Positions 9,014-27,352 of a stretch of 37,887 nucleotides of DNA are shown here, in pieces. This DNA is from a virus. Position 1 is the first letter of the stretch; the number at the start of each line of letters is the position of its first letter. The stretch is from positions 1 to 37,887 of IMG/VR virus record IMGVR_UViG_3300032304_001148, one strand, 5' to 3'. The notes under the pieces were generated by a model. It was not told the origin of the DNA. It made no database searches and worked only from the letters and a program-made list of their open reading frames with translations. The position numbers were made by a program, and so were the translations under genes.

Positions 9014-9078
9014 GAAGTCTTCTCCTCTAGTTAAAAGTGGGTTGGGGCGTTAACTATAACGTCAAAGATAACGGAGCG

Positions 9079-9405
9079 CTAGTCAAAATTTAGCGTCATG
9101 GGGCTGTAGGTAAGGCGGTTCTTGTCCCACCGCAGGATATCGCACGTGCCGTGGTTTTCCACCACAAGCGTCACGCAGATAGCGCACAGCGCGGGGTCCC
9201 CCGCCATCACCAAGTAGTCTCCTTCCTTGAATGTGGACAAAACCCGTCGCGCATGCTGCACAGCGCCACGCGGGTCATAGTCCCGGCTGATTGATGAAAA
9301 AACCTCTCGCACTTCGCCAAACTGCTCAGCCGCTGAGTAGTCTCTACGCCGGTCGGCATGCACCAACCAGGCAGTGCGTCGGTTACCTACAGAATCGTCA
9401 GTCAT
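9079..9405 (-). CDS. Conserved phage hypothetical protein (108 aa)
   Basis: A 108-residue protein whose ATG 9405 overlaps the stop of the DNA polymerase gene. The N-terminus is basic and helical (RRDYSAAEQFGEVREVFSS). The C-terminal half contains DYLVMAGDPALCAICVTLVVE and LRWDKNRLTYSPMTLNF. I recognise the MAGDPALCAI...LRWD pattern as a small conserved protein found beside DNA polymerases in many phages, with no established function. Translational coupling to the polymerase suggests a replication-related role. Confidence 0.78.
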   Translation of the reverse strand: MTDDSVGNRRTAWLVHADRRRDYSAAEQFGEVREVFSSISRDYDPRGAVQHARRVLSTFKEGDYLVMAGDPALCAICVTLVVENHGTCDILRWDKNRLTYSPMTLNFD

Positions 9406-11201
9406 TTGATATCTCCATACACTTTGCCCAGCTTGACTTCAGCTTTCACGGGCAACTCAGGCCACCACCGGGGCGGGGTACACATCACGCTTTCGATGTA
9501 ATCACGTGCTGCCTGGCCTTCGTGCTCATCAACCACAGCAACAAGCTCGTCGTGCACAGTGAGCGCGACCGGGTAAGTTGCGTTTACTATGAGCAGCTGC
9601 TCCATGACCACGTGCCGCGCAAGCGACTGCACGATATTTTCAGTGACTAGTCCGCCGTAGATACCGGAGCGCCCCTCGCCCCGCGCCACGTACGACCAGC
9701 GCCGGTCAGCGCTACTGTAGCTGAGCTCAGGGTACATCAAGGGGAACCCCGCCGGCAGCTTGATTTCGTTCTTGCCGGTCATGACCCGCAAGTGATCGCT
9801 GATAGAGTGTTCGCGCCCAGCGTGTATGAACTGCAGTGCGCGGTCGCACTTGTCCCAAAACTGCACGATCTTGTAGTTCTTCTTACGGTACGCCTCGATC
9901 GCTTTCTGGCACATCTCCTTCGACAGGGGCTTGCCTTGCACGCGGAGAAACTCGACGAAGGTGTTAGCGGACATACCGTACCCCGCCCCTAGCACCGTCA
10001 CCTTCCCCAGCCAGCGCTCCGCCTCATCAGCCTTGGTGATTGGCCGGCCGTAGATGAAGGACGCCATGTCGCAGTAGGGGTCAAGTCCTTGCTTGAAAAC
10101 GTCTATCAAGTCCTGCTGCCCAGCTACGCAGGCCAGGGCGCGGGCTTCAATCTGGGAGCTGTCGCCCACGATGAGTGCTTTGCCCGGCGGGGCCACGATG
10201 CCCTTGCGCAGCTTGGAGCCGCGAGTCAGGTTCTGCAAGTTGATGCCGCCCCCGCCGCTGAACCGCCCGGTGTGCGCCCCGTAGTAAAGCAACGGCACGG
10301 GTAGCAACCCGGTCTTGCCGATAGCGCTGAGTCGCTTGGCGCGGGTTTCCTCGATGGTAGACTTGAGCTTCAACCGAGCGCTGACCGCTGTTTGCACTCG
10401 AACGTCGGGATGCTCTAGCAGATCGGTGATGCCCTTGTCGTCTTTGGCGAAGGCGTAGGTAGGCTTACCCGTACGCTCGCTTATCTTCATGGGCGGCTCG
10501 ACCCCCAGCCCCCGGAGCGCCTCGGCGAACTTGGGGTTGGACATGATAGTGTCAAGGGTAATGCCCGCCTCAGCCAACGTCTTGTCGCGGTTCAAGTTCA
10601 GCTCGACCACGTAGTCGTCTAGCATGTCGTGGTCAACCGCCAACAGCGGCTGGGTTACCGCCTTGATAGCCCACTGCAGCAGTAGAAACTCGAACCGGGG
10701 GCAAGCGGCGATGAGATTCTTGTAAATCTCATAGCACAGGTCAACGTCTTTTACGCAGTACTCACCCAAGATGTTGCGCTCAAAGGGCTCAAGCTGCTCA
10801 AGTCGCTTGCCTTTAGCCACCGACAACCCGTCCAGTTTCGCCCCCAACCCCAAGCTGGCAGCTACGCTGTTGAGGCTGTACGACTTCAACCGCAGCTGCG
10901 CCCGGGCAAGCCCTACCGTGTCGGTGAACTCGTCAGGCGACCACCCGTAGTGGTGAGCCGCGATGGCCCCGTCAAACTGCGCATTATGCGCCACGCCGCG
11001 AAGCTTGGTGCCGTAGAACTTGAACGCTTTGCCGATGTCTGCCCCCCACGCCAGCACAGAGGGCTCGTCGTTCAGCTTGAAAGCGCAGCACTGAGCTTGG
11101 AAGCGGGGGTCGCGGATGTACTCGGTCGAGGTCATCTTAGACAACGAGTACCCTTCTGCGGGATCGTAGAAGGTCTCGAAGTCTAGCACTAGAGTATCCA
11201 T
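9402..11201 (-). CDS. Family A DNA polymerase with 3'-5' exonuclease
   Basis: A 599-residue replicative polymerase. The proofreading domain has Asp7/Glu9 (DFET), AHNAQFD with Asp78 and YCVKD with Asp152. The polymerase domain has HTGR (310-313), motif A VGDSSQIEAR with Asp347, the O-helix RWLGKVTVLGAGYG (396-409) and motif C HDE (550-552). There is no 5' nuclease domain, as usual for phage enzymes. The O-helix position equivalent to E. coli Pol I Phe762 is Leu404. ATG 11201 is chosen because it overlaps the TGA of the thymidylate-synthase-like gene and has AGAAGGAAG upstream; an in-frame start 33 nt earlier lacks support. It probably copies modified dUTP derivatives. Confidence 0.95.
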   Translation of the reverse strand: MDTLVLDFETFYDPAEGYSLSKMTSTEYIRDPRFQAQCCAFKLNDEPSVLAWGADIGKAFKFYGTKLRGVAHNAQFDGAIAAHHYGWSPDEFTDTVGLARAQLRLKSYSLNSVAASLGLGAKLDGLSVAKGKRLEQLEPFERNILGEYCVKDVDLCYEIYKNLIAACPRFEFLLLQWAIKAVTQPLLAVDHDMLDDYVVELNLNRDKTLAEAGITLDTIMSNPKFAEALRGLGVEPPMKISERTGKPTYAFAKDDKGITDLLEHPDVRVQTAVSARLKLKSTIEETRAKRLSAIGKTGLLPVPLLYYGAHTGRFSGGGGINLQNLTRGSKLRKGIVAPPGKALIVGDSSQIEARALACVAGQQDLIDVFKQGLDPYCDMASFIYGRPITKADEAERWLGKVTVLGAGYGMSANTFVEFLRVQGKPLSKEMCQKAIEAYRKKNYKIVQFWDKCDRALQFIHAGREHSISDHLRVMTGKNEIKLPAGFPLMYPELSYSSADRRWSYVARGEGRSGIYGGLVTENIVQSLARHVVMEQLLIVNATYPVALTVHDELVAVVDEHEGQAARDYIESVMCTPPRWWPELPVKAEVKLGKVYGDIK

Positions 11202-12181
11202 CAAGCTTCCTTCTCTTTGAGCCAGATCTTGCACGCGGTGCGCCAGTCACTCGCCTTGATGCTGTCAATGTACTTCAACCCGTTGCGCGTGCGCTTGTGC
11301 TCCCACCAGATGAGCGATATGGGCTGCACCACGTCCTGAAAGTACAGCGTGCGGTACTGCTTGTCGTCCTGCGGGTCCACCATGAACTCCTGCAAGTCGT
11401 GTTCCCAGTCCCGCACTGTGCAGTCTTTGAACATGGGGTAGGGCTGCACCAGCAACTCGGCGTACTCGGAGTCGTAGTAGTCAGTAGGCACGTAGGAGGT
11501 GTTCTCCACGTTCTTCCACACCGGCAACTTGGTGTACACGTGAAGCGAGTCAGACACCTGGGTATAGGGGCCGATTTCGTACTCGGTGCGCCCGGCGACG
11601 TACTCTTGCAACATGCTGAAGTGCACCACGTTGGCGCCCAGCTTGCCGTATAGCATGTCGTTAGAGCGGCAGCACACGGTCATGAGCAGCTTACCGTCAC
11701 GCACCTTCCAGTAGATATGCGTGTTGCACGGGTGATCCAGCTTCGACTGCCCCAAATCCAGGTCCGGGCTCCACATAGTGGTTACAACACGGCGATCCTC
11801 AGGGTTCAACTTCAGCAGTGTGATAGCTTTTTCAAGCTGATCAAAGCCCAGGGCGTGCCGAAGGCGGTGGCCGTACGCCCCCCAGAACGTCACCCCGTCG
11901 TCGCTGTACTGCTTCATTTGTGAGTTGAAGTAGTCTAGGAACTCGACGTCGCGGTACCCGCCGATAATCCACAACCCTTCCATGTGGTGAAAGAACGGGT
12001 TACACATGCGGTTCTTGTCAAAGAGCACCCGCTCGGTGGGCCGACGGTAGGTGGTGGCTACCGGCTCGGGGAACTCAAGCACGGGGCCGTTGCGCGAGTT
12101 CCGGGGCATCCCCTTCGCCTTGATCGCGTTGATCTCGAGCGGGAACGCTTGGTTCACGTTGGTGACGTTGAAGACTTCCAT
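11201..12181 (-). CDS. Thymidylate-synthase-like, predicted dUMP hydroxymethylase
   Basis: A 326-residue ThyA-superfamily protein. Landmarks are Arg130-Arg131, WSPDLDL, the nucleophile Cys152 in DHPCN (canonical enzymes have PPCH), RSND (172-175), GANVVHF with Asn184, and VSDSLHVY in place of the DxHIY motif. The overall divergence from canonical ThyA and the neighbouring kinase/pyrophosphorylase genes point to a pyrimidine hydroxymethylase using methylene-THF, making 5-hmdUMP. Asn184, if aligned to the Asn that reads uracil in ThyA (Asp in dCMP hydroxymethylases), favours dUMP as substrate. A true thymidylate synthase remains possible. It is translationally coupled to the DNA polymerase by a 1-nt stop/start overlap. 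Confidence 0.82.
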   Translation of the reverse strand: MEVFNVTNVNQAFPLEINAIKAKGMPRNSRNGPVLEFPEPVATTYRRPTERVLFDKNRMCNPFFHHMEGLWIIGGYRDVEFLDYFNSQMKQYSDDGVTFWGAYGHRLRHALGFDQLEKAITLLKLNPEDRRVVTTMWSPDLDLGQSKLDHPCNTHIYWKVRDGKLLMTVCCRSNDMLYGKLGANVVHFSMLQEYVAGRTEYEIGPYTQVSDSLHVYTKLPVWKNVENTSYVPTDYYDSEYAELLVQPYPMFKDCTVRDWEHDLQEFMVDPQDDKQYRTLYFQDVVQPISLIWWEHKRTRNGLKYIDSIKASDWRTACKIWLKEKEA

Positions 12182-12192
12182 GAGCGATGTCC

Positions 12193-13101
12193 TTAGAAAC
12201 GGGTTTCGGGTTGGTAGTTGGAGCGGGGGCGTCCACCGTTCAGCGCCCGCGCATACTTGTCGTACTCGCAGAAGCAGTTCTGCCAGTCGTGCAGCGTAAG
12301 ATCGTTGAGCTGGCCGTTCAACATGGCGTTGACTTTTTCAAGCGTAAGCATGAGCTCTTGATTAAATCTGTCCTGCGGTATCCGCTGATAAAGCGCACGT
12401 TCGAACACCCGGTTCAGCCCACGGGTTGAGCCCGGACCGATCGGGGCGTAAGTGCGCAGATCGGGAGCTGAGCTCAACACGCTGCTGTAGGTTAGATCGG
12501 CCACGGCTTGGCCGGTCATAAAAGTGCCCCATCCGTACTGCCCCTCAAACTTCGCCATCGACCCACGCACTGTCCTAGTGTCAGGATACGAGCGGGAGAA
12601 GTAATCGCCGATGCTATCGTCTGCAAGCAACGGCTGCAGCACCGTCTTGGCTACCCAGAACCCCTTACCCATACCTTCTGGGACTTGCCTAGCGGTAATG
12701 ATGTAGGCCCCGGTCCAGGTCTTATGCCCTTGCTGCACCCGGCGATCGATCAAGGCTCCGAACGCCTCGGCGTCAAATTCGCCTTCAGGCCACAAGCCGG
12801 CATCCATGATAGCTTGCAGCGTAGGAGGCCAGTTGATCCACCGAGCGCAGCACAGCATAAACCACAACCGGGGGTGGCTGTCGTAGGGTTTGATTATGGA
12901 GTCTATGACCCACTTCGAGACCCGGTCGTGCTTGCGCCGAACATTGCAGAAGCGGTACTGCTGCAATATGAGGTCAGGCGTCCACGGAGCGGGCATGCCG
13001 GTTTCTTTTACAACACGGATACGCTCGCGCTCACTCACAAAGTGAGCCATCTGCTTCAGCCGCCAGTCAACCGGGCTATCTATGACGAGGTCATACTGCA
13101 T
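12193..13101 (-). CDS. 5-hmdU DNA kinase helical-domain (HMUDK_hel-like) protein
   Basis: A 302-residue, predicted all-helical protein. The segment LQQYRFCNVRRKHDRVSKWV (about residues 46-65) and ARWINWPPTL (86-95) are the signature I associate with the helical domain linked to 5-hydroxymethyl-dU DNA kinases, a family related by computational work to HhH DNA-glycosylase folds and thymine hypermodification. Unlike fused forms, it has no P-loop; a kinase is encoded directly upstream. ATG 13101 has AAGGAG 8 nt before it and overlaps the kinase gene by 11 nt, so the two are probably co-translated partners. The predicted role is positioning or flipping modified bases in DNA. Recall of the family name is from memory, unverified. 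Confidence 0.65.
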   Translation of the reverse strand: MQYDLVIDSPVDWRLKQMAHFVSERERIRVVKETGMPAPWTPDLILQQYRFCNVRRKHDRVSKWVIDSIIKPYDSHPRLWFMLCCARWINWPPTLQAIMDAGLWPEGEFDAEAFGALIDRRVQQGHKTWTGAYIITARQVPEGMGKGFWVAKTVLQPLLADDSIGDYFSRSYPDTRTVRGSMAKFEGQYGWGTFMTGQAVADLTYSSVLSSAPDLRTYAPIGPGSTRGLNRVFERALYQRIPQDRFNQELMLTLEKVNAMLNGQLNDLTLHDWQNCFCEYDKYARALNGGRPRSNYQPETRF

Positions 13102-13651
13102 AGCCAAGCTCCTTCAGGATGACGTCAACGGCTTCTTCGGTGCTGACCCAGTGCGGGTTCAACCCCGCTGCGTGCAGCTTCTTGGCTGAGGAAATGTTCT
13201 TCTTGTCGTTGGTCAGTACGTTGTCAGTTTTCTCCAAAGGGGGCTTGCCTTCGGCCGCACGACGCTTGTTCACGTTGGCCACGCACTGCTCGAAGGGCGT
13301 GCTAAGGCAAACCGGCACCAGCCGCGCTCCCACCAGTTTGAGCCGCTCGTTTAGCAGGATTGTAGGCTCGTACACGTTGCCCACGATGACCCCTTCGTAT
13401 ATGACGTTGGAGTGTTCGGCGCACTCGACTACAGCATCCCACACCTGCTTTGGAGTCTTGATGGTGTCGCACCCGCCGCAGACCCGGTCGTACGAGCCGA
13501 GGATGACGAAGTTCTTGTAGACGTTGACCAGTACGCCGTTCGACAGCGTGACCTTTTTGACGAAGTCCGGGTCAGCGCGTTCCATCACCCGACGGGCTAC
13601 CCAGGTCTTGCCCGCACCGTTAGAGCCGCGAATAGAGATCACGGTATGCAT
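13091..13651 (-). CDS. P-loop kinase 1, predicted 5-hmdU DNA kinase
   Basis: A 186-residue P-loop NTPase of nucleotide/polynucleotide-kinase type. Walker A is GSNGAGKT (9-16). LSNGVLVNVYK, GSYDRVCGGCDTIK and VIYEGVIVGN follow, and an Arg-containing lid-like region (NKRRAAEGKPP) lies before the C-terminus. In thymine-hypermodifying phages such kinases phosphorylate 5-hydroxymethyl-dU in DNA. Its stop overlaps the helical-domain gene, consistent with a split kinase. A sigma70-like promoter (TTGTCC-17-TATAAT) lies 27 nt upstream of ATG 13651, and GGAG is 8 nt before it. It is paralogous to the next gene upstream. Confidence 0.75.
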   Translation of the reverse strand: MHTVISIRGSNGAGKTWVARRVMERADPDFVKKVTLSNGVLVNVYKNFVILGSYDRVCGGCDTIKTPKQVWDAVVECAEHSNVIYEGVIVGNVYEPTILLNERLKLVGARLVPVCLSTPFEQCVANVNKRRAAEGKPPLEKTDNVLTNDKKNISSAKKLHAAGLNPHWVSTEEAVDVILKELGYAV

Positions 13652-13674
13652 AGAAGTTCTCCGTTAGCGTTTGA

Positions 13675-14268
13675 TTAGATTATAACGTGCTCGGGCTTAA
13701 AGGACAAGCCCAAAAGCGTCATTGAAGCTATTAGCGCGTCACGCTGCGACACCAGCCTCGCGTCCACACCCCAGGACTTCAGCTTGGCGTGCGCAAGCTC
13801 GACAGCGCGGTACTTGGGCAGCAGCGACTTGCCGGGGTCGAAGGGCTTCTCGTTGCCTGCCAGAGCGCGACGGTTCATCGTTTGCTGAATGCATTTTTCT
13901 TTCGGCGTGTCAAGCGTCAGCGCGTGGAACTCGCCGTACGGGGCGCACGCATCGGCGACGTCTTTGGTCAACTGCTGCAACCCGGACAGTAGCAAGCCCT
14001 CCAGAACGATGTGAGCGTGAGGTATGACCTCGGCGCAAGCCTCGACAATGTCTCGCACGTTACGAACGCGATCTACGCCGCCGGTTACAGCCCCTTCGTA
14101 CAAACCGACGAACGCCACCGTAGCGCCCGCTGGGGTCTTGTACAGATGCATGAAAACCCCGTTGGAGGTCTTGAAGTCTTTGTACGGCGTCAGGTGGCTC
14201 ATCAGCGTTCGCACTACCGTAGTCTTGCCTGCGCCGTTGGTGCCGCGGATGTTGATTACGTGATTCAT
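13675..14268 (-). CDS. P-loop kinase 2, paralogue of the adjacent kinase
   Basis: A 197-residue P-loop kinase with Walker A GTNGAGKT (9-16). It shares colinear motifs with kinase 1: TSNGVFMHLYK, GLYEGAVTGGVDRVR, and IVEACAE followed by HIVLEGLLLSG. An Arg-rich lid (MNRRALAGNEKP) is conserved in position. The two genes are tandem paralogues. Possible roles are a second phosphorylation step (mono- to pyrophosphate), a different modified base, or a heterodimer with kinase 1; the sequence cannot decide. ATG 14268 overlaps the stop of the pyrophosphorylase-like gene. Confidence 0.75.
   Translation of the reverse strand: MNHVINIRGTNGAGKTTVVRTLMSHLTPYKDFKTSNGVFMHLYKTPAGATVAFVGLYEGAVTGGVDRVRNVRDIVEACAEVIPHAHIVLEGLLLSGLQQLTKDVADACAPYGEFHALTLDTPKEKCIQQTMNRRALAGNEKPFDPGKSLLPKYRAVELAHAKLKSWGVDARLVSQRDALIASMTLLGLSFKPEHVII
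13679..13707 (-). promoter_or_regulatory. Sigma70-type promoter before P-loop kinase 1
   Basis: On the minus strand TTGTCC (13707-13702) and TATAAT (13684-13679) are separated by exactly 17 nt, with the -35 inside the last codons of kinase 2. The ATG of kinase 1 lies 27 nt after the -10. This would let kinase 1 and downstream genes (helical-domain protein, hydroxymethylase, polymerase) be transcribed by the unmodified host polymerase. Confidence 0.6.
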
Positions 14269-15056
14269 ACGCGCACCATGTCGTCAGTGGGATCAACGGG
14301 CATATACTGCAGGATGTGATCGGCGATCTCGCCGAAGCCCGCGAGGTCGGCTCGTTTTTCCAAGATGTCCTTACCTATGGGCTTCTTGTTGCCGTAGTAG
14401 GCCTTGGCCATGCAGGCGATAGTTTCGGCTTCGGCTACGCCGCATCGCCTAACGTAGCGCGGCGGGGCGTCCAGGTGGTTGATCTCAGCCACCACCTTGA
14501 GCAGTGCTTCGGCGTAGTTGGCTTTGCGGTTACCGGCCAGCTCAGGAAACAGTATGTCGAGTCCCTGCATGGGCAGCGCCACCATGTGGTGCTCGGACTC
14601 GGTCCAGTCAACGTCGTAGCCAAAGACCGCCTCACGCAAGTCCATGCACTTCCAAGTAAAATAGTGCCCGATCTGCGGGATACCTTTCTGCAACAGTTTC
14701 ATGAAGGACGGCTGCATGCAGTCCTGGAAGAACCGCTCCGGGGTGCCGTAGGTGTTGATCCACGAGCGGAGCGCCTTCTTGCCCGCCTCGCCGCGAAAGT
14801 GTCGCCGCTCGGAAGCGCGGGGGGCGCTGTCGTAGCGGTTCCACAGTTCGGTCCAAAACTCGTCGCCTTGCAGCGTGCACACCTGGCACGCGGTGCCCAT
14901 GTGGTAGTAGGTGACGAACGCGGCGCACCAGCGCATGAGCATGTCTTCAGGCATACCGCTCTTGTGCAGCGCAACGTACACCGGATCTAGGTCATCAGTC
15001 AGCACGGTGTACTGCGCGAACTGCGTCCAGGGCATACTGGGGTCATACGTCAACAT
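14265..15056 (-). CDS. Alpha-glutamyl/putrescinyl-thymine pyrophosphorylase-like (clade 2)
   Basis: A 264-residue helical protein. Recognisable blocks are DPVYVALHKSGMPEDMLMRWC, TYYHMGTACQV, SERRHFRG (82-89), IGHYFTWKCMD, and CGVAEAETIACM followed by KPIGKDIL. I associate this set with the aG/PT-PPlase clade 2 family predicted to exchange pyrophosphate on 5-PP-methyl-dU for an amino acid or polyamine in hypermodified phage DNA. ATG 15056 is preferred over in-frame starts at 15122 (deep inside the next gene) and 15035 (no ribosome site), because AAGGA lies 8 nt upstream. The nucleophile transferred cannot be read from the sequence. Confidence 0.65.
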   Translation of the reverse strand: MLTYDPSMPWTQFAQYTVLTDDLDPVYVALHKSGMPEDMLMRWCAAFVTYYHMGTACQVCTLQGDEFWTELWNRYDSAPRASERRHFRGEAGKKALRSWINTYGTPERFFQDCMQPSFMKLLQKGIPQIGHYFTWKCMDLREAVFGYDVDWTESEHHMVALPMQGLDILFPELAGNRKANYAEALLKVVAEINHLDAPPRYVRRCGVAEAETIACMAKAYYGNKKPIGKDILEKRADLAGFGEIADHILQYMPVDPTDDMVRV

Positions 15057-15807
15057 AGCCGAGGTCCTTGAATTGGTCAAGATGAACGATTGGTCTAGTG
15101 TCGAAGATGTCGCACCAGTCATGGCGCAGCACCTGATCGAACAAGAAGGTGTAGTTGATAGCGTCGTGGGCGCATGCCCGCATGCTGTACCCGTAGTTGG
15201 CGCGGAAGAACGCCGCTACCCCGCGCACGTAGCTCTCGTAGCACTGAATGTTGTAGTTGAAGAAGTTGGAGTAGGTGCGCCGGTGCAAGTGCTCTTTGAC
15301 TTTGGCGCTGTCAACAAAAGCGACGTAGCGAGGCTGGGCGTTGAAAACCGCATCTAGCAACCGGCGTTCCTTCGGGTCTCGCATAGCCCGATAGGTTGTC
15401 ATGGCGTTGAACTCAAGCAACACGTAGTCAAACTGCTTCAACTGGGTGATGACCGGCGCCAACGCGTACGAGTCGCCCTGAAACACCGAGGCTTGCGGGC
15501 GCAAGTGCTTGAACGCCGCGCAACACCCCGGGTCATGGTCAAGCGCTACGTGCTCAATCAAGCGTTCGTTGCCGAAGGGGGCAGTGCTCAGCCCGAAGCC
15601 GCAAAACACCTCAAGCACCGCTAGCGCGTCGTCCGGTATGGTGCGGTTGACGTACCAGACCTGCTCGGCGTAGGTGAGCGTAGAGCGAAGCGAGTCGTTT
15701 AGCCAATGCTGCATACCCACCGCATCAGCCGAGGCGGGGGTATCAGCGTTTTCGGCGGGCACGTAGAACCGAACCCCTTTGTACTCGGCGTGTCGAAGTT
15801 GAATCAT
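15043..15807 (-). CDS. Class I SAM-methyltransferase-like protein
   Basis: A 254-residue protein with a Rossmann methyltransferase core. Motif I is VLEVFCGFG (64-72), the acidic loop is VALDHDP (87-93), FQGDSY (109-114) fits motif III, and DYVLLEFNAM (127-136) occupies the motif IV position. FCGFG recalls cytosine-C5 methylases, but no PCQ catalytic motif or target-recognition domain follows, and no DPPY-type amino-methylase motif is seen. It is therefore more likely a small-molecule or modified-base tailoring enzyme than a restriction-type methylase. It overlaps the genes on both sides (ATGA with the preceding one), placing it inside the modification operon. Substrate unknown. Confidence 0.65.
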   Translation of the reverse strand: MIQLRHAEYKGVRFYVPAENADTPASADAVGMQHWLNDSLRSTLTYAEQVWYVNRTIPDDALAVLEVFCGFGLSTAPFGNERLIEHVALDHDPGCCAAFKHLRPQASVFQGDSYALAPVITQLKQFDYVLLEFNAMTTYRAMRDPKERRLLDAVFNAQPRYVAFVDSAKVKEHLHRRTYSNFFNYNIQCYESYVRGVAAFFRANYGYSMRACAHDAINYTFLFDQVLRHDWCDIFDTRPIVHLDQFKDLGYVDV

Positions 15808-16313: not shown

Positions 16314-16613
16314 TTAAGCCCCCTTGCGTGCGGTGACGCGGACGGTGGTGACGTCGGCGGACTTGGTATGAGCGCGGATGAACTGAGGCGACAAGTGCCG
16401 GCGCACGGCTTCCATGTCAAGGGTTTCGCGCTGCGACACGCTGACCGACACGCGGAACATTTCGCCTTCGACAGCGCCCACGCCGACTTCCTCGACGATG
16501 GCGTTTTTAAGCTCGGTTTCTTGCGCTTGCAGCGTGGCGATCTGTGCCTTGATTTGACCCAGACGGTCGATGCGCTGCTCGAGAGACTCGGGAGAGGGGG
16601 TAGCGGTTGTCAT
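16314..16613 (-). CDS. Coiled-coil phage protein (99 aa)
   Basis: A 99-residue protein with an N-terminal heptad-like helix (LEQRIDRLGQIKAQIATLQA, then QETELKNAIVEE). A compact C-terminal half follows (GEMFRVSVSVSQRETLDMEA, RRHLSPQF, TTVRVTARKGA). The helix-then-strand layout, with the FRVSVS...R...D...VRR pattern, recurs in small early proteins of proteobacterial phages. Function is unknown; an Gp157-like or DNA-end accessory role is speculative. CTGGAG precedes ATG 16613, and the GATTAAAAAATACAAT element lies 85 nt upstream, so this may be the first gene of the modification operon. Confidence 0.7.
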   Translation of the reverse strand: MTTATPSPESLEQRIDRLGQIKAQIATLQAQETELKNAIVEEVGVGAVEGEMFRVSVSVSQRETLDMEAVRRHLSPQFIRAHTKSADVTTVRVTARKGA

Positions 16614-17333: not shown

Positions 17334-19700
17334 TCAATCATCGGCGTCGCTCTTGGCGGCTGTGCCGCCGGTTAGAGACTTGAACTCGCCATAGAAGCGG
17401 TTGGCGTACCCGGCGCGCCACGTCAGGCGGTAGCCGCTGTATTCGGCTCCGCGCACGTTGCCCACTGCGCGCCCTATGGCCACCGTAGACAGCGTTCGCA
17501 TTCGGCCCAACGTAAGCAGCGTGGCCTCAAGGTTGCGGTCGAAACCGATCTTGTCCTGGATGTCGCTAGAGCTGAAGCGCTCGCCGGGCGGGAAGGTGCG
17601 GAACAGCCAGCCCACGAACTCGTCTTTGAGGCTGTAGTCCTCGTCCACGGCGCGAACCCGCAAGTCGTCTCGCATGGGGTCGATGAGCCCGGCGACAATG
17701 ACCGCCCGCCGCACGAATTGATCCCACTCGTAGAAGCGGGACGGGCGGAACGCGGGTACGGCGTCAGCCGGGGCGCGAGCCCCATTCTGCAACAACCGCA
17801 GCACCGCGCACAACACCGCACGGCGACGGCTGAGCGCGTACTCTAGCAGCTGCGGGTGGGTGAACTCCTCCGTGATGCGGCGATCGAACTCGACCACTAT
17901 GGAGCGAGTCATTATTTCCTCGCTGGGGCGGACGTTGATGCCGTTGACAATGAGCGTGGTCCGGGGGGTGAACTGCACGGTGTCGTTCTTGCCAAGTAGC
18001 CGCGCCTTGAACTTGCCGGAGGTGATGAGCTCGGTCAGCGCTTGGCTGTGGAAGCGCCCGTTCTGGTTGTCAAACACCATAACGTCGGGGTCCTCCATGA
18101 AGTACGACGTCAGCTGCTTGATCTGTTCTTCTTCGTTGCCCGACAGGCTGTAGTTGGCGGGCTCTTTGCTTAGGATGATCTGCGGTAGGTAGGACCAGAT
18201 AGTCTTGCCGTCGGCGGGGTAAGGCGACGTGACGATGAAGGCGGGGGCTTTGTCTAGTACTTTCCGGGCCACCGCTGACAGCAGCGTGGTGATGGATAGC
18301 GACAGCCCGATTTCGCGTGAATGGAAGGGGAAGTCGGCGTACAAGTCTTGCAGCGTGGTCAGGGCGTCGGCTACCTCTAGCTTGTCCACCTCCGCCTGGG
18401 TAATGCCCAACCCTTCGCCGATGTAGAAGGAGGTGTCGCGGTTGAAGCCTTCGTCTGTAACGAGGTGGCCTTCTCGGGTGACCAAAGGATACATACACAC
18501 TCCGTTGATGCGCGGCATGCCCCAGTTGATAGACGGGTCCATCATTCGGCGCACCAACCGCGAGTCCGCCTCTATCACTACGTCAACCTTCTCTTTACCG
18601 TCCACGCGCACGAACTGGACGTGCCCCTCAAGGTGGTGCGCGAAGGCGTCCGAGCCGGGGCGTAGCATGACGGTGTCGTTGTAGCCGGGAGCGCCCCGGC
18701 GCATAACCACCACCGCCGACCCCGCGTAGCTGAACAATGTCTTTTCCGAGTCGGGCACTGCGGCTATGATCTTGACGGCCTCGTTTACGGCGTCCTCCAT
18801 GCTGACGCGGGTGAGGTTGATCTTGGGCTTGCCCTCCTTGGCTACCTTGCCGCTTTCCGCGATTTTGGACGGCAACCACTTCTTGACGCGGTCCGTTTCC
18901 CACCCGAACGCCTCCAGCGAGGCGAACCCGGCCACCGGCTTCCCGTCGGCCAGACGCTTGTAGGTGTCGTCAACGTCGCCTTGCTTGTCCTCGTCATCGT
19001 CGATGAGGTAGGATATGGCTTTCACCGCCCGCCGCGCCATCTCGATGGGGACCCCCGCCTTGGCGAAGCCGCCTATCACGCGCAACATCGAGTCGTGCCG
19101 GATGCCGGGGGCAATCGAGTGCTTCACCCATATGACGGTCATCATCACGCCCAGCGCCATCTTAAGGTCGGCTTCGTCGATGAGCGGGGGCTCGCCGGTG
19201 CAGTCTACCCACTGCACTGCGTGCTCGTGGCGCGACGGGGGGAACACCGTCTGGCTGTTGTCGCCTCGGTACTCAATGCACTTGACGATGGCGCCGCCGG
19301 TTTCCTTCTTGGACAACCGCCAGTCCGCCGACGACTTGGTGCCGCCCTCAACGTGGTACAGGTAGTGTGAGGGGATGACGGAGTCGCTTTCGCCGGGGTA
19401 TATGCGGCCGAACCGCCAGCCCGTGGGCGGCAAGAACCAGGAGCCGATCTTGCGGGCTATGGGGTGGTCAAGGTCGATGTCGATGAGGTTCCCGGACACC
19501 GCCCCCAGTTGCACCCCGATGTTGCTAAGCCCCTTGAAGTCGTCCAGGGTGTAGGCGGTGTCCTGCCACCCGGTAAGGCGTATCACCTTGGAGTTGGGCA
19601 GTATTGGCAGGCACTTCCAGCCCTTGGCTGTGTAGGCTTGATAGGCCTTCTTTATGGCGTCGGCGTGAGCGCGAGCTTCGTCTAACGTGGGCGTTGTCAA
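17334..19700 (-). CDS. Primase-polymerase/helicase fusion
   Basis: A 788-residue protein. The N-terminal ~180 residues are an archaeo-eukaryotic-type primase-polymerase domain: GVQLGAVSGNLIDIDLD with Asp74/Asp76/Asp78, SHYLY with His112, and IEYRGDNSQTVFPPSRH (142-158). The C-terminal part is a P-loop helicase-like ATPase with a degenerate Walker A, SPYPADGKT (492-500), and a Walker B-like VMVFDN (540-545) ending in Asn. It is expected to prime and unwind DNA for the family A polymerase. The start is TTG 19700 with AAGGA 7-8 nt upstream; no ATG fits better. It is the second gene of the minus-strand operon. Confidence 0.88.
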   Translation of the reverse strand: MTTPTLDEARAHADAIKKAYQAYTAKGWKCLPILPNSKVIRLTGWQDTAYTLDDFKGLSNIGVQLGAVSGNLIDIDLDHPIARKIGSWFLPPTGWRFGRIYPGESDSVIPSHYLYHVEGGTKSSADWRLSKKETGGAIVKCIEYRGDNSQTVFPPSRHEHAVQWVDCTGEPPLIDEADLKMALGVMMTVIWVKHSIAPGIRHDSMLRVIGGFAKAGVPIEMARRAVKAISYLIDDDEDKQGDVDDTYKRLADGKPVAGFASLEAFGWETDRVKKWLPSKIAESGKVAKEGKPKINLTRVSMEDAVNEAVKIIAAVPDSEKTLFSYAGSAVVVMRRGAPGYNDTVMLRPGSDAFAHHLEGHVQFVRVDGKEKVDVVIEADSRLVRRMMDPSINWGMPRINGVCMYPLVTREGHLVTDEGFNRDTSFYIGEGLGITQAEVDKLEVADALTTLQDLYADFPFHSREIGLSLSITTLLSAVARKVLDKAPAFIVTSPYPADGKTIWSYLPQIILSKEPANYSLSGNEEEQIKQLTSYFMEDPDVMVFDNQNGRFHSQALTELITSGKFKARLLGKNDTVQFTPRTTLIVNGINVRPSEEIMTRSIVVEFDRRITEEFTHPQLLEYALSRRRAVLCAVLRLLQNGARAPADAVPAFRPSRFYEWDQFVRRAVIVAGLIDPMRDDLRVRAVDEDYSLKDEFVGWLFRTFPPGERFSSSDIQDKIGFDRNLEATLLTLGRMRTLSTVAIGRAVGNVRGAEYSGYRLTWRAGYANRFYGEFKSLTGGTAAKSDADD

Positions 19701-19715
19701 GGCGGGGTCCTTACG

Positions 19716-21248
19716 TCAAAAGATTTCGCGCAGTACGTCCATGTGGCCGTCTTTGCGGCGGACGTGAAGCTTGCGCGGGGTGGGCAACGAATAGCATTCG
19801 ATGCGTGCGCGTTGGGCACTGCGGGGAAAGGCAGGGGCGCTACTATAACCGCGCCGCCGCGCCCACTGCTCCGCGTGCCAACGGGCTCCGCCGTCGTACT
19901 CGACGCAAACAAACTGCGTCACGTCCAGGCTGACCCCGGTGTCAGTCTCGCAGTCGTACACCGCCATCAGCAGCTGCTTGCCGGGGAACCGGGCGGAGTT
20001 CCGCACCACGTAGGAGCACTTGACCACGTTGACAAGCAGCCCTTCGGCCGAGCCCAGCATAGGGTCGATGGCTTGCAGCGCCAACTGCTTGACGCCGCGC
20101 CGGGGCGCTTCGCGTTGTTGGGCGTCCTTGTCACCCTTGGTCACTGGCTCAACTTTGCCGCCCTTCTCACGGCTCCAGTTTTCCATGGTGTCCACCCCGC
20201 CCAACCGGGCCAGGTTGCCCACGTAGTCCAGCACCAGGCAGTCGGCTTTGCCGGCGGCAATGCGCATACCCCGTCCCAACATCTGCACCCAAAGAGCGCT
20301 TGACGTTGTAGGGCGCAGGCAGACGATGGCGTCCAGGGCGGGGAAGTCAAACCCCGTGGTCAGGATGTCCACGTTGCACATGAAGCGGAACTCGCCCGCC
20401 TTCCACGCGCCCAGCCGGTCGTCGCGGTCGGGGGTGTCGGCGGTCACATAGTCGGCAGTCTGCCCGTTGGCATTCAACCACTCGCACGCCTTGCGCGCAG
20501 TCTCCACCGTGGGGCAGAACACCAACACGTGCTTGCGCTTCTGCAAGTGCGCCAGCGAGTTGCGCAGCGCGGCGGCAAGCCACCCTTCGGCGTTGATGGC
20601 TTGTTCGGTGCCGGACTGGCTGAAGTCGCCGCCCACCTTGCGCACCCCGCCCATGTCCAGTTGCCATTCGGTTTGCACCCCGCGCAACGGCGCCAGGAAG
20701 CCCTGCTCAACCAGTTCAAGGGCGGGCAGTTGGTAGGCCAGCACATCGAAGTGCTTCTTGTCGCCGTAGATGGCGCCGCCGTCAAGCCGCCATGGGGTAG
20801 CGCTGAGCCCGATGCGGCGCACGCCGGTTTCGGCAATGAACCGGTTGTACATCAGCCCCTCACCGTCCGGCGGAACTAAGTGCGCCTCGTCAATGACCAC
20901 GGCGTTCAACCCGCGCTGCTTGAACTCTTCAGCTCGCTTGAACACCGACTGTATCGACGCGAACACTATGGGCGCGTCCGGTTCGTCACGGTTCAACCCC
21001 GCGCAGCACACCCCGGTGGGGGTGTCCGGGGCGTAGCGCCGCAACGTGGCCTCGTTCTGCTGAACGAGTTCCTTCACGTGCGTCACCACCACGAGGCGAC
21101 CGCCCTTCTGCGCGAACTTGGAAGCCAAGTGCGCAATGACCAGCGACTTGCCCGCGCCGGTGGGCAGTTGCAGAGCGGGGTTCAGACCGTCACGCAGCGC
21201 TTGCACTGCGGCGGTGATGGCGTCTTTTTGGTAGTATCGAAGTTCCAC
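19716..21248 (-). CDS. SF2 DEAH-type DNA helicase
   Basis: A 510-residue superfamily 2 helicase of the RecG/UvsW/Res-III type. Motif I is PTGAGKS (29-35), Ia VVTHVKELVQQN, II VVIDEAH with Asp120-Glu121, III LSATPW, a helicase C-domain VLVFCPTVETARK, V LTTGFDFP and VI QMLGRGMR. A C-terminal ~120-residue extension follows (KDGHMDVLREIF end). It likely remodels forks or unwinds DNA during early replication or recombination. GTG 21248 is the start; the ribosome site is weak. It is the first gene after the divergent control region, so probably an immediate-early gene. Confidence 0.9.
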   Translation of the reverse strand: MELRYYQKDAITAAVQALRDGLNPALQLPTGAGKSLVIAHLASKFAQKGGRLVVVTHVKELVQQNEATLRRYAPDTPTGVCCAGLNRDEPDAPIVFASIQSVFKRAEEFKQRGLNAVVIDEAHLVPPDGEGLMYNRFIAETGVRRIGLSATPWRLDGGAIYGDKKHFDVLAYQLPALELVEQGFLAPLRGVQTEWQLDMGGVRKVGGDFSQSGTEQAINAEGWLAAALRNSLAHLQKRKHVLVFCPTVETARKACEWLNANGQTADYVTADTPDRDDRLGAWKAGEFRFMCNVDILTTGFDFPALDAIVCLRPTTSSALWVQMLGRGMRIAAGKADCLVLDYVGNLARLGGVDTMENWSREKGGKVEPVTKGDKDAQQREAPRRGVKQLALQAIDPMLGSAEGLLVNVVKCSYVVRNSARFPGKQLLMAVYDCETDTGVSLDVTQFVCVEYDGGARWHAEQWARRRGYSSAPAFPRSAQRARIECYSLPTPRKLHVRRKDGHMDVLREIF

Positions 21249-23364: not shown

Positions 23365-23407
23365 CCTGAGAACCGCCGCCATCGCACGGGCGAAGGGGGA
23401 GGTATGA
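23357..23407 (+). pseudogene. 16-codon stub of the LRTAA module
   Basis: ATG 23357 to TGA 23407 encodes [16 protein letters not shown]. The 17-base string ACCTGAGAACCGCCGCC at 23364-23380 is identical to 22886-22902 at the start of the preceding gene, and then the two diverge. It is best read as the residue of a third module copy lost by recombination. It retains a start codon, and its TGA overlaps the next ATG, so it may still be translated and serve coupling. Confidence 0.5.
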
Positions 23408-23682
23408 CTCGCGACGACATCATCCGCATGGCGCGGGAGGCGTGGAGCCGTGACGAAGATTTTTGGCTGACCCATGAGCAGGTGTTCCTTGAACGCTTCG
23501 CCGCCCTTGTCGCCGCTGCCGCAAAAGAAGAGATGCTCATGGCCGGGAACGACCAATGGCTTGAAGAGGCGCGGAAGGCTGAGCGCGAGGCGTGTGCGAA
23601 GGTGTGTGATGAGATGCACCGCAATCCGAGCGCAGAGCCCGACGAATGCGCCGCCGCCATCCGCGCAAGGGGGCAAGCGTGA
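23404..23682 (+). CDS. Conserved small phage protein (92 aa)
   Basis: ATG 23404 has GGGGGAGG directly upstream. The 92-residue helical protein starts [14 protein letters not shown], continues with [17 protein letters not shown], and then [17 protein letters not shown]...[12 protein letters not shown] recognise the [14 protein letters not shown]...[16 protein letters not shown]...AIRARG family, very common in phages of Burkholderiales and related hosts. Its function is not established; the paired Cys in CAKVC could bind a metal. It is the best host hint in the window. Confidence 0.8.
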
Positions 23683-23975
23683 CGCCGCTGACGGTTGACC
23701 AGATCAAAGGTGCGGTGCACCGGGCGGGGGTGCCTTACGCGCTGCACCACAAAGCGGGACCGTCGAACGTGCCCGGCGGGGCGGACGGCCAATGGACGCT
23801 GCGGTGCGATACGGATCCCCGATTGCTGGTGGCGCGGGCGGTTGAAGCCGCGCACGGCATAGGGGCTGAAACGAAACACGGGGACGGGTGTTGGTCCTGG
23901 GGGCCGCAGCACTACATGTGCGCGTACCGGGAGCTGCGTAGGTTGCGCGAAGCGCTGCAGGATGACGGCAAGTAA
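23679..23975 (+). CDS. Hypothetical early protein (98 aa)
   Basis: The start is GTG 23679 overlapping the preceding TGA (GTGA). The 98-residue product has [40 protein letters not shown] and a C-terminal [19 protein letters not shown] helix. The Trp/His-rich centre ([13 protein letters not shown]) is unusual. No family is recognised. It ends the coupled run of small early genes before a candidate terminator. Confidence 0.65.
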
Positions 23976-24010
23976 CGCCGCTCCGTTAATCTAGGGTGTT
24001 AACAACGTGG

Positions 24011-24037
24011 CGCGGGGGCGGTGCTTCCGCGTCTTTT
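24011..24037 (+). terminator. Candidate intrinsic terminator
   Basis: A GCGG-TGCTT-CCGC stem-loop (24018-24030) is extendable by an outer CGCGG/CCGCG alternative and is followed by GTCTTTT. It is weak but correctly placed between the coupled small genes and the zinc-ribbon gene, and may give partial termination. Confidence 0.4.
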
Positions 24038-24055: not shown

Positions 24056-24319
24056 GTGAAGTGTTTGCAGTGCGGGGGGCGTGCCGGGGTGCTAACCACT
24101 CGGGTGCTAGACAACGGGGCGCGTACCCGGCGGTACCAGTGTGCTAAGGCGCATCGGTTTACAACGTATGAAGTGTACGCGGTGCGGCCGGAGGCGCTGC
24201 GCGAAACTGAGGGCACGCCGGTGCTAAAAACCAAGCGCCTTGAGAAAGGCCTGGCGCTGCAGCAGGCGTGGTCCAGGATGGGTTCGCTGGGGGGTGCGGA
24301 ATCTAAGGCGGAGGACTAG
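24056..24319 (+). CDS. NrdR-like zinc-ribbon protein (87 aa)
   Basis: GTG 24056 has GGAGG 9 nt upstream. The 87-residue basic protein begins MKCLQCGGRAGVLTTRVLDN, continues GARTRRYQCAKAHRFTTYEV, and has a helical basic tail. The CxxC...RRYxC...RFTTYE pattern is that of the NrdR N-terminal zinc ribbon (and related phage Ogr-like ribbons), which bind DNA. The usual second CxxC is replaced by C-x3-H (CAKAH), so coordination would be Cys3His. There is no ATP-cone domain. It may be a phage transcription factor; AT-rich candidate control DNA follows at once. Confidence 0.7.
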   Translation: MKCLQCGGRAGVLTTRVLDNGARTRRYQCAKAHRFTTYEVYAVRPEALRETEGTPVLKTKRLEKGLALQQAWSRMGSLGGAESKAED

Positions 24320-24329
24320 GGTTAACCCT
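24318..24329. promoter_or_regulatory. AGGGTTAACCCT palindrome, copy 2
   Basis: Identical to 21460-21471, overlapping the stop region of the zinc-ribbon gene. The two copies flank the small early gene block and would suit a shared regulator, possibly the zinc-ribbon protein itself (inference). Confidence 0.5.
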
Positions 24330-24725
24330 GGTTTTAAGATGTTTAAGATTTTTAAGTGGTTTTACGCCCCCCCTATAGTTTTCGAAAAACGCACGTTTTT
24401 TGCTTCTGGATGTTAGGGTTTGCCCTCGTATATTACTGATTGCTTATATATCATCATTGTATTTTTTGCTCTTTTTATACGGAAGTGATTTTTTATTACT
24501 TAAAAAAGTTAAAACACTTAAAAAACTCAATAGAAACAACGACTTACGAACTTTTAAGTAGTTTTAAGATGGTTAAGTACTTGCTATGGCGTTCAATAGT
24601 ATAGTCTTTTAAGTTGTATCTAGATCTAAGAACATCCTAAAACCACTTAAAAGTTAGCAGCTACTAAGTTAGAGTGCTCTGGACCAGTTAAAATTTGCTT
24701 AGATGTACAAACGGAGAACCACAAG
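24320..24725. promoter_or_regulatory. AT-rich non-coding region with TTTTAAG iterons; candidate origin/control
   Basis: About 400 bp with no plausible gene and sharply lower GC than its surroundings. TTTTAAG or its complement occurs at 24332, 24499, 24517, 24552, 24562, 24607 and 24646. Around 24333-24359 TTTAAGATG, TTTAAGATT and TTTAAGTGG are three 9-bp tandem units; around 24552-24580 related units repeat at 10-bp steps, close to one helical turn. AAAAAATACAAT (minus, 24467-24456) and TGCTTAGATG (24696-24705) are also here. This is the look of a replication origin or a multi-site regulator region. It separates early small genes from packaging genes. Confidence 0.6.
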
Positions 24726-25235
24726 ATGGGTGTCTTTTTCAGTCCTGGCCAGAACCCCGCGTACGACGCTGCGGTGGCCCAACGGGAGCAGAAGCGGCAT
24801 GCGCAGTTGGAGCGGGTAGAAGAGAAGCACGAGGCTGAGCGTGAGCGCATCGCGTTGCGTGTGCGGCTGATCGCGGAGCAGACCGAGCTTGAGCGGCTGC
24901 GCAAGCGAAACGAGCAGGCCGCGCTGCGCTTGAAGCAGCGGGCTGAGAAGCTGCTGGCTGCGCACAAGCAGGCGCTGGCGGAGCAGCGAGCGAAGGTTGA
25001 CGAGCTGAAGCGCAAGCTGAGCTCTGAAGATGACCGCCGCCGGGATCGCCAACACGCCTTGGAGTGCCGCAGAGAGGCCGAGGCCACCGGCGCCAAGACC
25101 TACCTAACCGGGCTGGCTTGCCGCAACGGGCACGTGGCGCCTCGGTATGTGTCGTCCGGGGCGTGCGTGGAGTGCGACGCGATGTATGGGAGTCCGGGTT
25201 ATACTAAGCGACGTCAGCTGAAGCAAGTTACCTAA
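24726..25235 (+). CDS. Coiled-coil protein with C-terminal zinc motif (169 aa)
   Basis: ATG 24726; CGGAG lies 11-15 nt upstream. Residues ~15-115 are one long highly charged coiled coil rich in E, R, K, Q and A. The C-terminus (~120-160) has GLACRNGHVAPRY followed by GACVECDAMYG, a C-x3-H...C-x2-C treble-clef-like motif commonly placed beside HNH domains in phages; no HNH catalytic residues are present. It is the first gene after the AT-rich region and two genes before the terminase, so a DNA-binding packaging or terminase-accessory role is plausible but unproven. Confidence 0.7.
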   Translation: MGVFFSPGQNPAYDAAVAQREQKRHAQLERVEEKHEAERERIALRVRLIAEQTELERLRKRNEQAALRLKQRAEKLLAAHKQALAEQRAKVDELKRKLSSEDDRRRDRQHALECRREAEATGAKTYLTGLACRNGHVAPRYVSSGACVECDAMYGSPGYTKRRQLKQVT

Positions 25236-25245
25236 GGAGTCCATC

Positions 25246-25785
25246 ATGGACGTGACCGACCCACGCTACCCGCACGACCACCCCCGCTTCCAGAAGGAAG
25301 TGCACACCATGACGCAGGCAGAGGTGGAGATCTGGATGTCGGACGTCCCTGATGCCCCCGCCCCAGGCGCAGCTGAGCCGTACGAAGTCTTCATGCAGAG
25401 GCAGTCGTACTACACGCAGTACAGCAATGCGGTCATCATGGCGCGGGACGAGTACCGAGCGCAGAGCGAGAAGTTGGCGGTGCCCGCCCCGCCCGTAGGC
25501 GAGGACATACGCGAAGTGGTGGACTGGGTGCAGCGCACCGGCGAGACCCCCATCGAGTTCCTAGCTAAGACCTACCGCTCGTCCTCGGCCAAGACCAGCG
25601 ACCGCATTACCGCCGCCCGCGCTCTGCTCGACTACGTCCACCGCAAGATGCCGCAGACCATCGACGTGAAGGACGACCGGCTGAGCAAGGAGATGGTGGA
25701 GCAGCAGACCGAGCTGATCAAGCGTGTGGAGGAGATGCTGTCGGAGCGCATCCAGGAGAAGAAGCAGTTGCAGCGGGTGAAGTGA
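25246..25785 (+). CDS. Putative small terminase subunit
   Basis: AAGGAG stands 7 nt before ATG 25246. In the 179-residue product a central segment, TGETPIEFLAKTYRSSSAKT followed by RITAARALLDYVHRKMPQ, matches the TPLEFLL...R...AAKAALPYVHRK pattern of phage proteins encoded directly upstream of large terminases. The C-terminal ~45 residues are a charged helix (KEMVEQQTELIKRVEEML). Small terminase subunits are oligomeric and bind pac/cos DNA. Here the call rests on this motif and the position, not on a recognised DNA-binding fold. Confidence 0.65.
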   Translation: MDVTDPRYPHDHPRFQKEVHTMTQAEVEIWMSDVPDAPAPGAAEPYEVFMQRQSYYTQYSNAVIMARDEYRAQSEKLAVPAPPVGEDIREVVDWVQRTGETPIEFLAKTYRSSSAKTSDRITAARALLDYVHRKMPQTIDVKDDRLSKEMVEQQTELIKRVEEMLSERIQEKKQLQRVK

Positions 25786-25967
25786 TGTGGTGCGTGCTCA
25801 AGTGCTGCAACGAGGTACACTTGGTTCCGGTTGACGACTACCGCCTGCACGAAGTAGGCGATGAGGGCGAGTGCTGGTGCCGCCCCGACGTGGACGCCGA
25901 GGGCGTCATCAAACACAACGCACTTGACGGCCGCGAGTGGTACGAGAACGGAGCACCCTTGCAGTGA
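25785..25967 (+). CDS. Small conserved phage protein (60 aa)
   Basis: ATG 25785 overlaps the preceding TGA by one base. The 60-residue protein contains CCNEVHLVPVDDYRLHEVGD, then ECWCRPDVDAEGVIKHNALDGREWYE. The C-x-C-x-P...(V/I)xHxxLDGRE pattern is a recurring small phage protein; the Cys/His set could hold a metal. It lies between the putative small and the large terminase genes and overlaps the latter (GTGA). Function unknown. Confidence 0.72.
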   Translation: MWCVLKCCNEVHLVPVDDYRLHEVGDEGECWCRPDVDAEGVIKHNALDGREWYENGAPLQ

Positions 25968-27352
25968 CCCGCACGCAGGACCTCGTACGGCAGCTTGAGG
26001 GGGTACACCCCGAATGGCGAGCGTTGCTGGACTGGCGGCTGCAGTGGTTGGAGTCGGCCCACTTGTACCAGCTGGCCCCCACCAATGTGCCGTGGGACAT
26101 CTGGATGTTGCTGGCTGGCCGGGGCGCAGGCAAGACCAAGTGCGCAGGCAACGAGCTGGGCTGGCTGGCGCTGTCGAACCCTGGCACTCGCTCGCTGGTG
26201 ACCGCGCCCACCTCCGGCGACATCCGGGACACCTGCTTCGAAGGCGAGTCGGGGCTCATGAACACGCTGCCCCGGTGGACCATAAAGAAGTATAACAGCA
26301 GCCTCAGCGAGATCCTGCTCTTCAACGACTCGATGCTCAAGGGCATCCCGGCCAGCGAGCCCGAGCGGTACCGGGGGCCGCAGTTCCACTTTGCCTGGTA
26401 CGACGAGCTTGCCGCCATGGAGAAGCCCCAGGCCGCATGGGACCTCTCGCAGATGGGCGTGCGGTTGGGCAAGCAGACCAAGACGATCATAACGACCACG
26501 CCGAAGCCCATCCCCATCTTGCGCGACCTCATCCGGCGCGAGGGCGAAGGCGTCATCGTGAGCCGGGCGTCTACGTACCAGAACTTGGACAATTTGTCCA
26601 ACAACTTTCGCAACAAGATCCTGCAGCTTGAGGGCACCGAGCAAGGCCGGCAGGAAATCCACGGCGAGCTGCTCGACCTCAGCGAGTCCGGCCTCTGGAA
26701 GAAGAGCTGGTTCAGGTTGCTGAACGTAGACGACGACACGCCCAAGTTTCAGCACGTGCTCATCTCGCTGGACACCGCGTTCACCAAAGACTCGCAGAAC
26801 GACCGCACTGCGTGCACGGTGTGGGGCGTGTTCTACGACACCGACACCAAGTGCTACTGCGCGTTGCTGCTGGACTGCTGGGCGGACCGTATCAACTTCC
26901 CTGAGCTCCGCGAGAAAGCCCGCGAGCTGTGGATGGCCAGCTACGGGTCGCACGACCAGAAGGCCAACACGATACTGATTGAGGACAAGGGCTCCGGCAT
27001 CAGCTTGCGGCAGGACTTGCAAGCCGAGGGCATCCCGGTCACCCCGTTCAACCCAGGACGGGCCGACAAGATCCAGCGAGCCAACGTGGTGGCTCCGTTG
27101 CTGAAGGACGGGTTCATCTACTTGCCGGAGTCGAAGAAGTACCCTGGGCAGGCCTCCACTTGGACTGACGAGATGATGGAGGAGATCACGATGTTCCCGA
27201 ACGACGAGCACGATGACTACGTAGACAGCATCTCGCAGGCGCTGCACTATTTGAACCAAATGGGCTACTTGCGGTCGACCCTCGGTGTGCACCGGGACGA
27301 CGACGAGGAGCCGTCCTACTGGCGTAAGAAGTACCATCCTTATGCCGCTTGA
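25964..27352 (+). CDS. Terminase large subunit
   Basis: A 462-residue packaging motor. The ATPase domain has Walker A GRGAGKT (52-58) and Walker B-like FAWYDELAAM. The coupling TTTPKP motif follows. The RNase H-fold nuclease domain shows SLDTAF, LIEDKGSG and HDDYVDS with the expected metal-binding acids. It translocates DNA into the prohead and cuts the concatemer. GTG 25964 is preferred: it overlaps the preceding stop and has GGAG 9-10 nt upstream; another GTG at 25937 lies further inside the previous gene. The sequence type is that of phage terminases with NTP-driven headful or cos packaging; which one cannot be told here. Confidence 0.95.
   Translation: MTRTQDLVRQLEGVHPEWRALLDWRLQWLESAHLYQLAPTNVPWDIWMLLAGRGAGKTKCAGNELGWLALSNPGTRSLVTAPTSGDIRDTCFEGESGLMNTLPRWTIKKYNSSLSEILLFNDSMLKGIPASEPERYRGPQFHFAWYDELAAMEKPQAAWDLSQMGVRLGKQTKTIITTTPKPIPILRDLIRREGEGVIVSRASTYQNLDNLSNNFRNKILQLEGTEQGRQEIHGELLDLSESGLWKKSWFRLLNVDDDTPKFQHVLISLDTAFTKDSQNDRTACTVWGVFYDTDTKCYCALLLDCWADRINFPELREKARELWMASYGSHDQKANTILIEDKGSGISLRQDLQAEGIPVTPFNPGRADKIQRANVVAPLLKDGFIYLPESKKYPGQASTWTDEMMEEITMFPNDEHDDYVDSISQALHYLNQMGYLRSTLGVHRDDDEEPSYWRKKYHPYAA

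Follow-up and report, generated by a model that had tools for sequence, protein, structure and literature searches.

The replication origins oriL and oriR of the Bacillus phage SPP1 consist of direct repeats and an AT-rich unwinding element, and in the portion of the SPP1 report cited here pac adjoins the terminase genes, where it overlaps with gene 1 and the late promoters (PMC6316719). According to the same portion, the late promoter PL1 lies in front of TerS, combines a good, canonical -10 element with a poor, atypical -35 element and depends on an early factor of unknown identity (PMC6316719). For the PrimPol/SF3/winged-helix proteins of pRN1 and of BPP-1-type phages a start at a stem-loop of about 100 bp has been proposed (PMC4234260). 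Head-to-tail filaments of the winged-helix proteins BldC, RdfS and Xis assemble on 9-bp AT-rich direct repeats, with one repeat for each protomer and a variable number of repeats (PMC5859096, PMC11963761). We analysed a viral sequence of 37,887 nucleotides (IMGVR_UViG_3300032304_001148; this whole stretch is called the window) in which an AT-rich gap precedes the terminase genes, as in the cited description of SPP1 pac/PL1 and oriL/oriR (PMC6316719). In contrast to SPP1, to which no sequence relation was shown, one element could combine the different roles here, and convergent pairs of arrays with 9-10 bp steps are not described in that portion of the SPP1 report (PMC6316719).

The gap is located at 24320-24725 (406 bp), is non-coding and has 33% GC in a phage of 60% GC. 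An earlier note on this DNA had described about 400 bp of low GC, and the GC profile bears this out with a drop from 0.60-0.67 to 0.24-0.43 across 24320-24700. We found no conserved ORF spanning the gap and no known RNA family in the island. Eight exact copies of TTTTAAG/CTTAAAA are present, five on the plus strand (24332, 24350, 24552, 24562 and 24607) and three on the minus strand (24499, 24517 and 24646). The cluster of this motif described in the earlier note is thus real, although its count of seven was one too low: when the island itself was dinucleotide-shuffled 2000 times, the mean was 0.57 and the maximum 4 copies, and only one exact copy lies elsewhere in the window, at 16505. Pairs of TTAAG on the same strand with a distance of 9 or 10 bp occur four times against 0.025 expected from island shuffles, and are absent from the remaining 37.5 kb of the window.

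The sites are organized in four arrays with steps of 9-10 bp, A and C on the plus strand and B and D on the minus strand. They form two convergent pairs, A/B and C/D, and no other closely spaced inverted repeats of the whole window are as long as these two. Arrays B and D and this convergent arrangement had escaped the earlier note. Array A (24332-24356) contains three TTTAAG with TTAAG at 24334, 24343 and 24352; these steps of 9 and 9 agree with the threefold 9-bp tandem reported before, which is also found among the TRF repeats. The spacer between A and B (24357-24497), with a GC content of 0.24-0.39 per 100-bp window, is a candidate unwinding element. Array B (24498-24530) comprises CTTAA at 24499, GTTAA at 24508, CTTAA at 24517 and a weak CTCAA at 24526, in steps of 9. 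In array C (24549-24578) TTTTAAG at 24552 and 24562 is followed by GGTTAAG at 24571. The existence of an array at 24552-24580 had been recognized correctly, but not its uniform 10-bp steps, which are 10 and then 9 (TTAAG at 24554, 24564 and 24573). Array D (24626-24655) consists of CTAAG at 24626, CTAAAA at about 24636-24637 and CTTAAAA at 24646, with steps of about 10 and 10. Arrays C and D are the left and right arms of an inverted repeat that in the window matches at 91% over 23 nt and encloses a loop of 61 nt. One additional TTTTAAG is located on the plus strand between them (24607-24613). A CtrA-type TTAA-N7-TTAA arrangement with 11-bp spacing was rejected, as the TTAA spacing in the arrays is 9 or 10 and an 11-bp step leads only to a CTTAG element.

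The placement of the island at the boundary of early and packaging genes, also stated in the earlier note, was confirmed. To its left are minus-strand genes for replication and DNA modification (DNA polymerase A, PrimPol, helicase and hydroxymethyluracil DNA kinases) as well as short rightward genes that differ between clades. The PrimPol replication protein (788 aa, PF09250; 17334-19700, minus strand) shows Walker-type and SF3/D5-like motifs, as read by eye only, had no match among PDB sequences and is 77-79% identical across the window and the related contigs G003 and G006. A DEAD/ResIII-type helicase is encoded at 19716-21248, also on the minus strand. On the plus strand, a terminator-like hairpin with a T tail (24009-24033) is located upstream of a gene for an NrdR/Ogr-like zinc ribbon of 87 aa (24056-24319). 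The late operon to the right of the island encodes a coiled-coil protein of 169 aa with a C-terminal CRNGH..C..C zinc module (24726-25235), a TerS-like protein (25246-25785) and the large terminase TerL (25937-27352), all on the plus strand, and the portal. A set of genes for thymine hypermodification (11201-15122, minus strand) is conserved in G001, G003 and G006; it comprises a thymidylate-synthase-like protein, an HMUDK helical protein, two HMUDK-like kinases and an ADDT-like amino acid:DNA transferase.

Relatives were identified with TerL, TerS and DNA-pattern scans in 2.9 million viral contigs, and all of them are uncultured contigs. One (G002) is identical to the window over the island stretch. 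The G001-type contigs (G001, G003, L004, L005 and G005) have 84-85% identity in TerL and G004 has 79%; G006, a fragment with synteny in the replication genes, stops shortly past the coiled-coil gene. Given the close relationship among the five G001-type contigs, the independent support amounts to about four clades. In every relative of the group the same four arrays are found immediately before the coiled-coil/zinc gene. The steps of array A are 9 and 9, and those of array C 10 and 9, in all eight contigs. The CTTAG element 11 bp past array C is present in most contigs and mirrored at D in several, and G004 also has a similar extra site between C and D. In the order window, G001-type, G004 and G006, the spacing from the first site of A to the first site of C is 220, 220, 221 and 211, from the first site of B to the first site of C 55, 54, 54 and 54, and from the first site of C to the last site of D 92, 91, 92 and 112; the A-B spacer measures 138, 139, 140 and 130. 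The deviations in G006 correspond to about one and two helical turns, which in a single lineage is weak evidence when taken alone.

Each of the arrays A-D is more alike between every pair of clades than in all 200 shuffles. The DNA between A and B is not clearly above shuffle likeness when the window is compared with G001 (23/200) or with G004 (40/200). A spacer that retains its length while its sequence diverges in this way is stronger evidence than the helical-turn deviations of G006. Each island holds 4-7 phased pairs; none occurs in the rest of these records, and about 137 kb outside the islands contain no TTAAG pair at 9 or 10 bp. In the viral collection the three-site pattern is confined to this phage group, and looser matches in other viruses lack the arrays, except for G006. 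A host-derived or widespread motif was rejected: 84,980 bacterial genomes gave 5 exact matches, all single triplets without a surrounding array. The longest contig of the group, L161 (IMGVR_UViG_3300010885_021982, 51,323 bp), was found by its PrimPol (78%). This contig has the PrimPol gene close to one of its ends, and TerL, the coiled-coil protein and the island were not found on it; its island is therefore probably located in an unsequenced gap.

Taken together, the sequence comparisons show that the island is a real, conserved and phage-specific non-coding cis element with selected spacing. Loss of the spaced motifs in relatives had been named in the earlier note as the result that would speak against a functional cluster, and the arrays are instead kept in four clades. 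Through this conservation, its general reading of helically phased sites for an initiator or a cooperative regulator is well supported. As the four-cluster layout is kept in distant relatives, the island is almost certainly a docking site for protein, most likely a start of DNA copying and/or a switch for the late genes. For an uncultured phage group that replicates with a PrimPol system and is predicted to hypermodify thymine, this provides a defined, testable cis-acting element. An arrangement of two convergent array pairs, phased with the helix and at almost constant spacing, is unusual and suggests a large nucleoprotein machine.

We favour the interpretation that the island is the replication origin of a PrimPol-type replicon, with a probability of roughly 0.4, because iteron-like repeats, the AT-rich A-B spacer, a PrimPol system and the C/D hairpin fold occur together. 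A phage-encoded protein would bind head-to-tail along each array, and arrays on matching faces of the helix would join in one nucleoprotein complex. An initiator, probably the conserved PrimPol-helicase protein or a partner of it, would then load on the arrays and melt the very AT-rich A-B spacer, and/or the C/D inverted repeat would be extruded as a hairpin of about 105-135 nt and primed. Located directly upstream of the late operon, the element may at the same time act as the switch of a late promoter. Should it prove to be an origin, an iteron-bearing example would join the few PrimPol-type origins proposed for phages. Plasmids and lambdoid phages with iteron origins likewise have short direct repeats beside AT-rich DNA. 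Iterons of the classical kind measure about 18-22 bp and are usually situated within the initiator gene or adjacent to it. The repeats described here differ from these by their 9-10 bp steps and alternating orientation and by the lack of an adjacent initiator gene, as PrimPol and helicase are encoded 3-5 kb away on the minus strand.

The combination of a putative PrimPol-helicase protein with an inverted repeat able to form a hairpin of about 105-135 nt resembles the PrimPol replicons of pRN1 and BPP-1 type, and arms of 23 nt with a 61-nt loop in the window compare with a 21-nt stem and a 58-nt loop in pRN1 (PMC4234260). Unlike in pRN1, phased direct repeats build up the stem, which is separated by 4.6 kb from the PrimPol gene instead of lying just 3' of it, and the pRN1 origin is without iterons (PMC4234260). 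As single-stranded DNA the C/D region folds better than shuffled sequences in the four clades (z of -3.2, -7.4, -5.4 and -7.0). Outside the core positions, the match of C and D is only marginally better inside a genome than across genomes (the observed value is attained in 2/24 and 46/720 permutations), and so weak an excess does not point clearly to selection for a hairpin as such. In the GC-skew check proposed in the earlier note, neither the overall nor the third-position skew switches at the island, which speaks against an origin, but the skew is weak everywhere.

It is also possible, though rather doubtful, that the island is primarily a late promoter, at which an activator or repressor fills and loops the arrays and array D contacts RNA polymerase at a promoter without a -35 element, thereby turning on the late operon (24726). 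No other gap separates the early rightward genes from this operon, and an intrinsic terminator directly before array A in the G001-type contigs implies that a late promoter is needed here. TATAAT follows array D after 19, 41 and 39 nt in G001-type, G004 and G006, with a joint chance of roughly 0.11 x 0.012 x 0.02 in segment shuffles; a sigma-70 -35 partner for these elements was not found, which recalls the atypical -35 of SPP1 PL1 in the cited portion of that report (PMC6316719). The window itself has no TATAAT in this position but only TAAAAT (24689-24694, plus strand), a weak candidate -10 element in front of the first late gene. At least 12 sites are distributed over 320 bp. This is far more than phage activators are known to need. 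In addition, the distance from D to the start codon varies (80/55/88/72), whereas that between the arrays hardly does, and a conserved small activator gene was not found.

A pac- or cosB-like function is unlikely. In such a scheme the TerS-like protein (25246) would bind the phased arrays, wrap the DNA and position TerL to cut the concatemer. The location fits, with the island 0.5 kb upstream of the TerS-like gene; the cosB site of lambda is likewise located at the terminase genes. Clades with the arrays also share 71-74% identity in TerS, which is undetectable in relatives that lack the arrays. Against this, the island does not mark a contig end in the window, G001 or G003, all of which extend through it, no HTH family was detected in the TerS-like protein, whose structural model was of low confidence and not usable, and the TerL relative Caulobacter phage RLK has direct terminal repeats of 2.9 kb. 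RLK (TerL 41% identical) and MW202545 (TerL 46% identical) lack any TTAAG pair at 9 bp, also when one mismatch is allowed. The absence of PrimPol from these two island-less relatives is confounded: the TerS-like and coiled-coil genes were also undetected, and since all three are missing together the two phages cannot separate an origin from a packaging site. Origin, late-promoter and packaging roles may also be combined in one element.

We consider a centromere or nucleoid-type site, serving a partition adaptor or nucleoid protein or acting as a structural element of curved DNA, to be very unlikely. In their tandem 9-10 bp repeats the arrays recall centromeres of the ParR/TubR type, but no ParA, ParM or TubZ was found among the genes tested. 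Curvature, computed with a wedge model, exceeds composition shuffles in the islands of G001 and G004 but is not unusual in G006, and neither in the window nor in G001 does the maximum fall in the island; intrinsic curvature was rejected as an explanation because of this inconsistency across clades. Even more speculative is an origin combined with an early-to-late switch in which a filament protein reads TTTTAAG differently before and after hypermodification of thymine; in this reading replication, by producing new modified DNA, would itself turn on late transcription or packaging. Chance or a compositional artefact, which might be suspected as motif and gap are both AT-rich, is practically negligible, since shuffles of the island composition never exceed 4 sites, the arrays are kept in four clades and phased pairs are absent elsewhere.

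Whatever its function, each array is very probably occupied by a protein at one site per helical turn, with the arrays acting together. BldC binds 9-bp AT-rich direct repeats in this manner (PMC5859096); the steps of 9-10 in all arrays, one per helical turn, correspond to those of BldC and Xis arrays. The motif differs, TTTTAAG here compared with AATTNNNNC. Among the window genes scanned with Pfam no BldC/excisionase-like or MerR/HTH_17-like gene was recognized, several small genes being without family. PrimPol, helicase, the coiled-coil/zinc protein and the TerS-like protein are present wherever the record of an island covers them. The two neighbouring proteins put forward in the earlier note as binders fared differently. 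Its zinc ribbon (24056) is an unlikely binder, as it is absent from G001 and G003, lacks an equivalent in front of the island in G001-type contigs and is thus not universal. The coiled-coil protein (24726) adjoins the island in every contig reaching this far, but apart from the zinc module at its C-terminus no part of it looks related to DNA. AlphaFold predicts one helix of about 110 residues and a small zinc module, and a fold search with this model gave no matches. A 57-aa protein that combines a GRP arm with an HTH was rejected for the same lack of universality as the zinc ribbon: it occurs in G001 and G003 and is absent from the window and G006.

Some further observations concern these proteins and other parts of the genomes. 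Residues 115-153 of the coiled-coil protein form a CRNGH..RY.SSGAC.EC zinc module, joined in this protein to a long coiled coil, with relatives among phage proteins that carry an endonuclease VII/HNH annotation. The zinc ribbon is otherwise found only in G006, at another place (9434-9859 of the reversed record), and is NrdR-like without the rest of NrdR. The 57-aa protein is encoded just downstream of PrimPol (G001 reversed, 19344-19517; G003 reversed, 8919-9092), and its HTH resembles the DNA-binding domains of resolvases or of sigma region 4. The window lacks a second AT-rich island that relatives have at divergent early promoters (G001 reversed, 23400-23750; L007, 900-1350; L005, 1-400; L006, 1200-1650). 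This second island contains isolated TTTTAAG and the palindrome GGTTTTAAGGGTTTAACCC without phased arrays, and in G001 it holds the highest predicted curvature of the record. At the left contig end of the window, positions 1-36 are a tandem of CCCCGCCACCGC (3 x 12 bp) located in an open frame.
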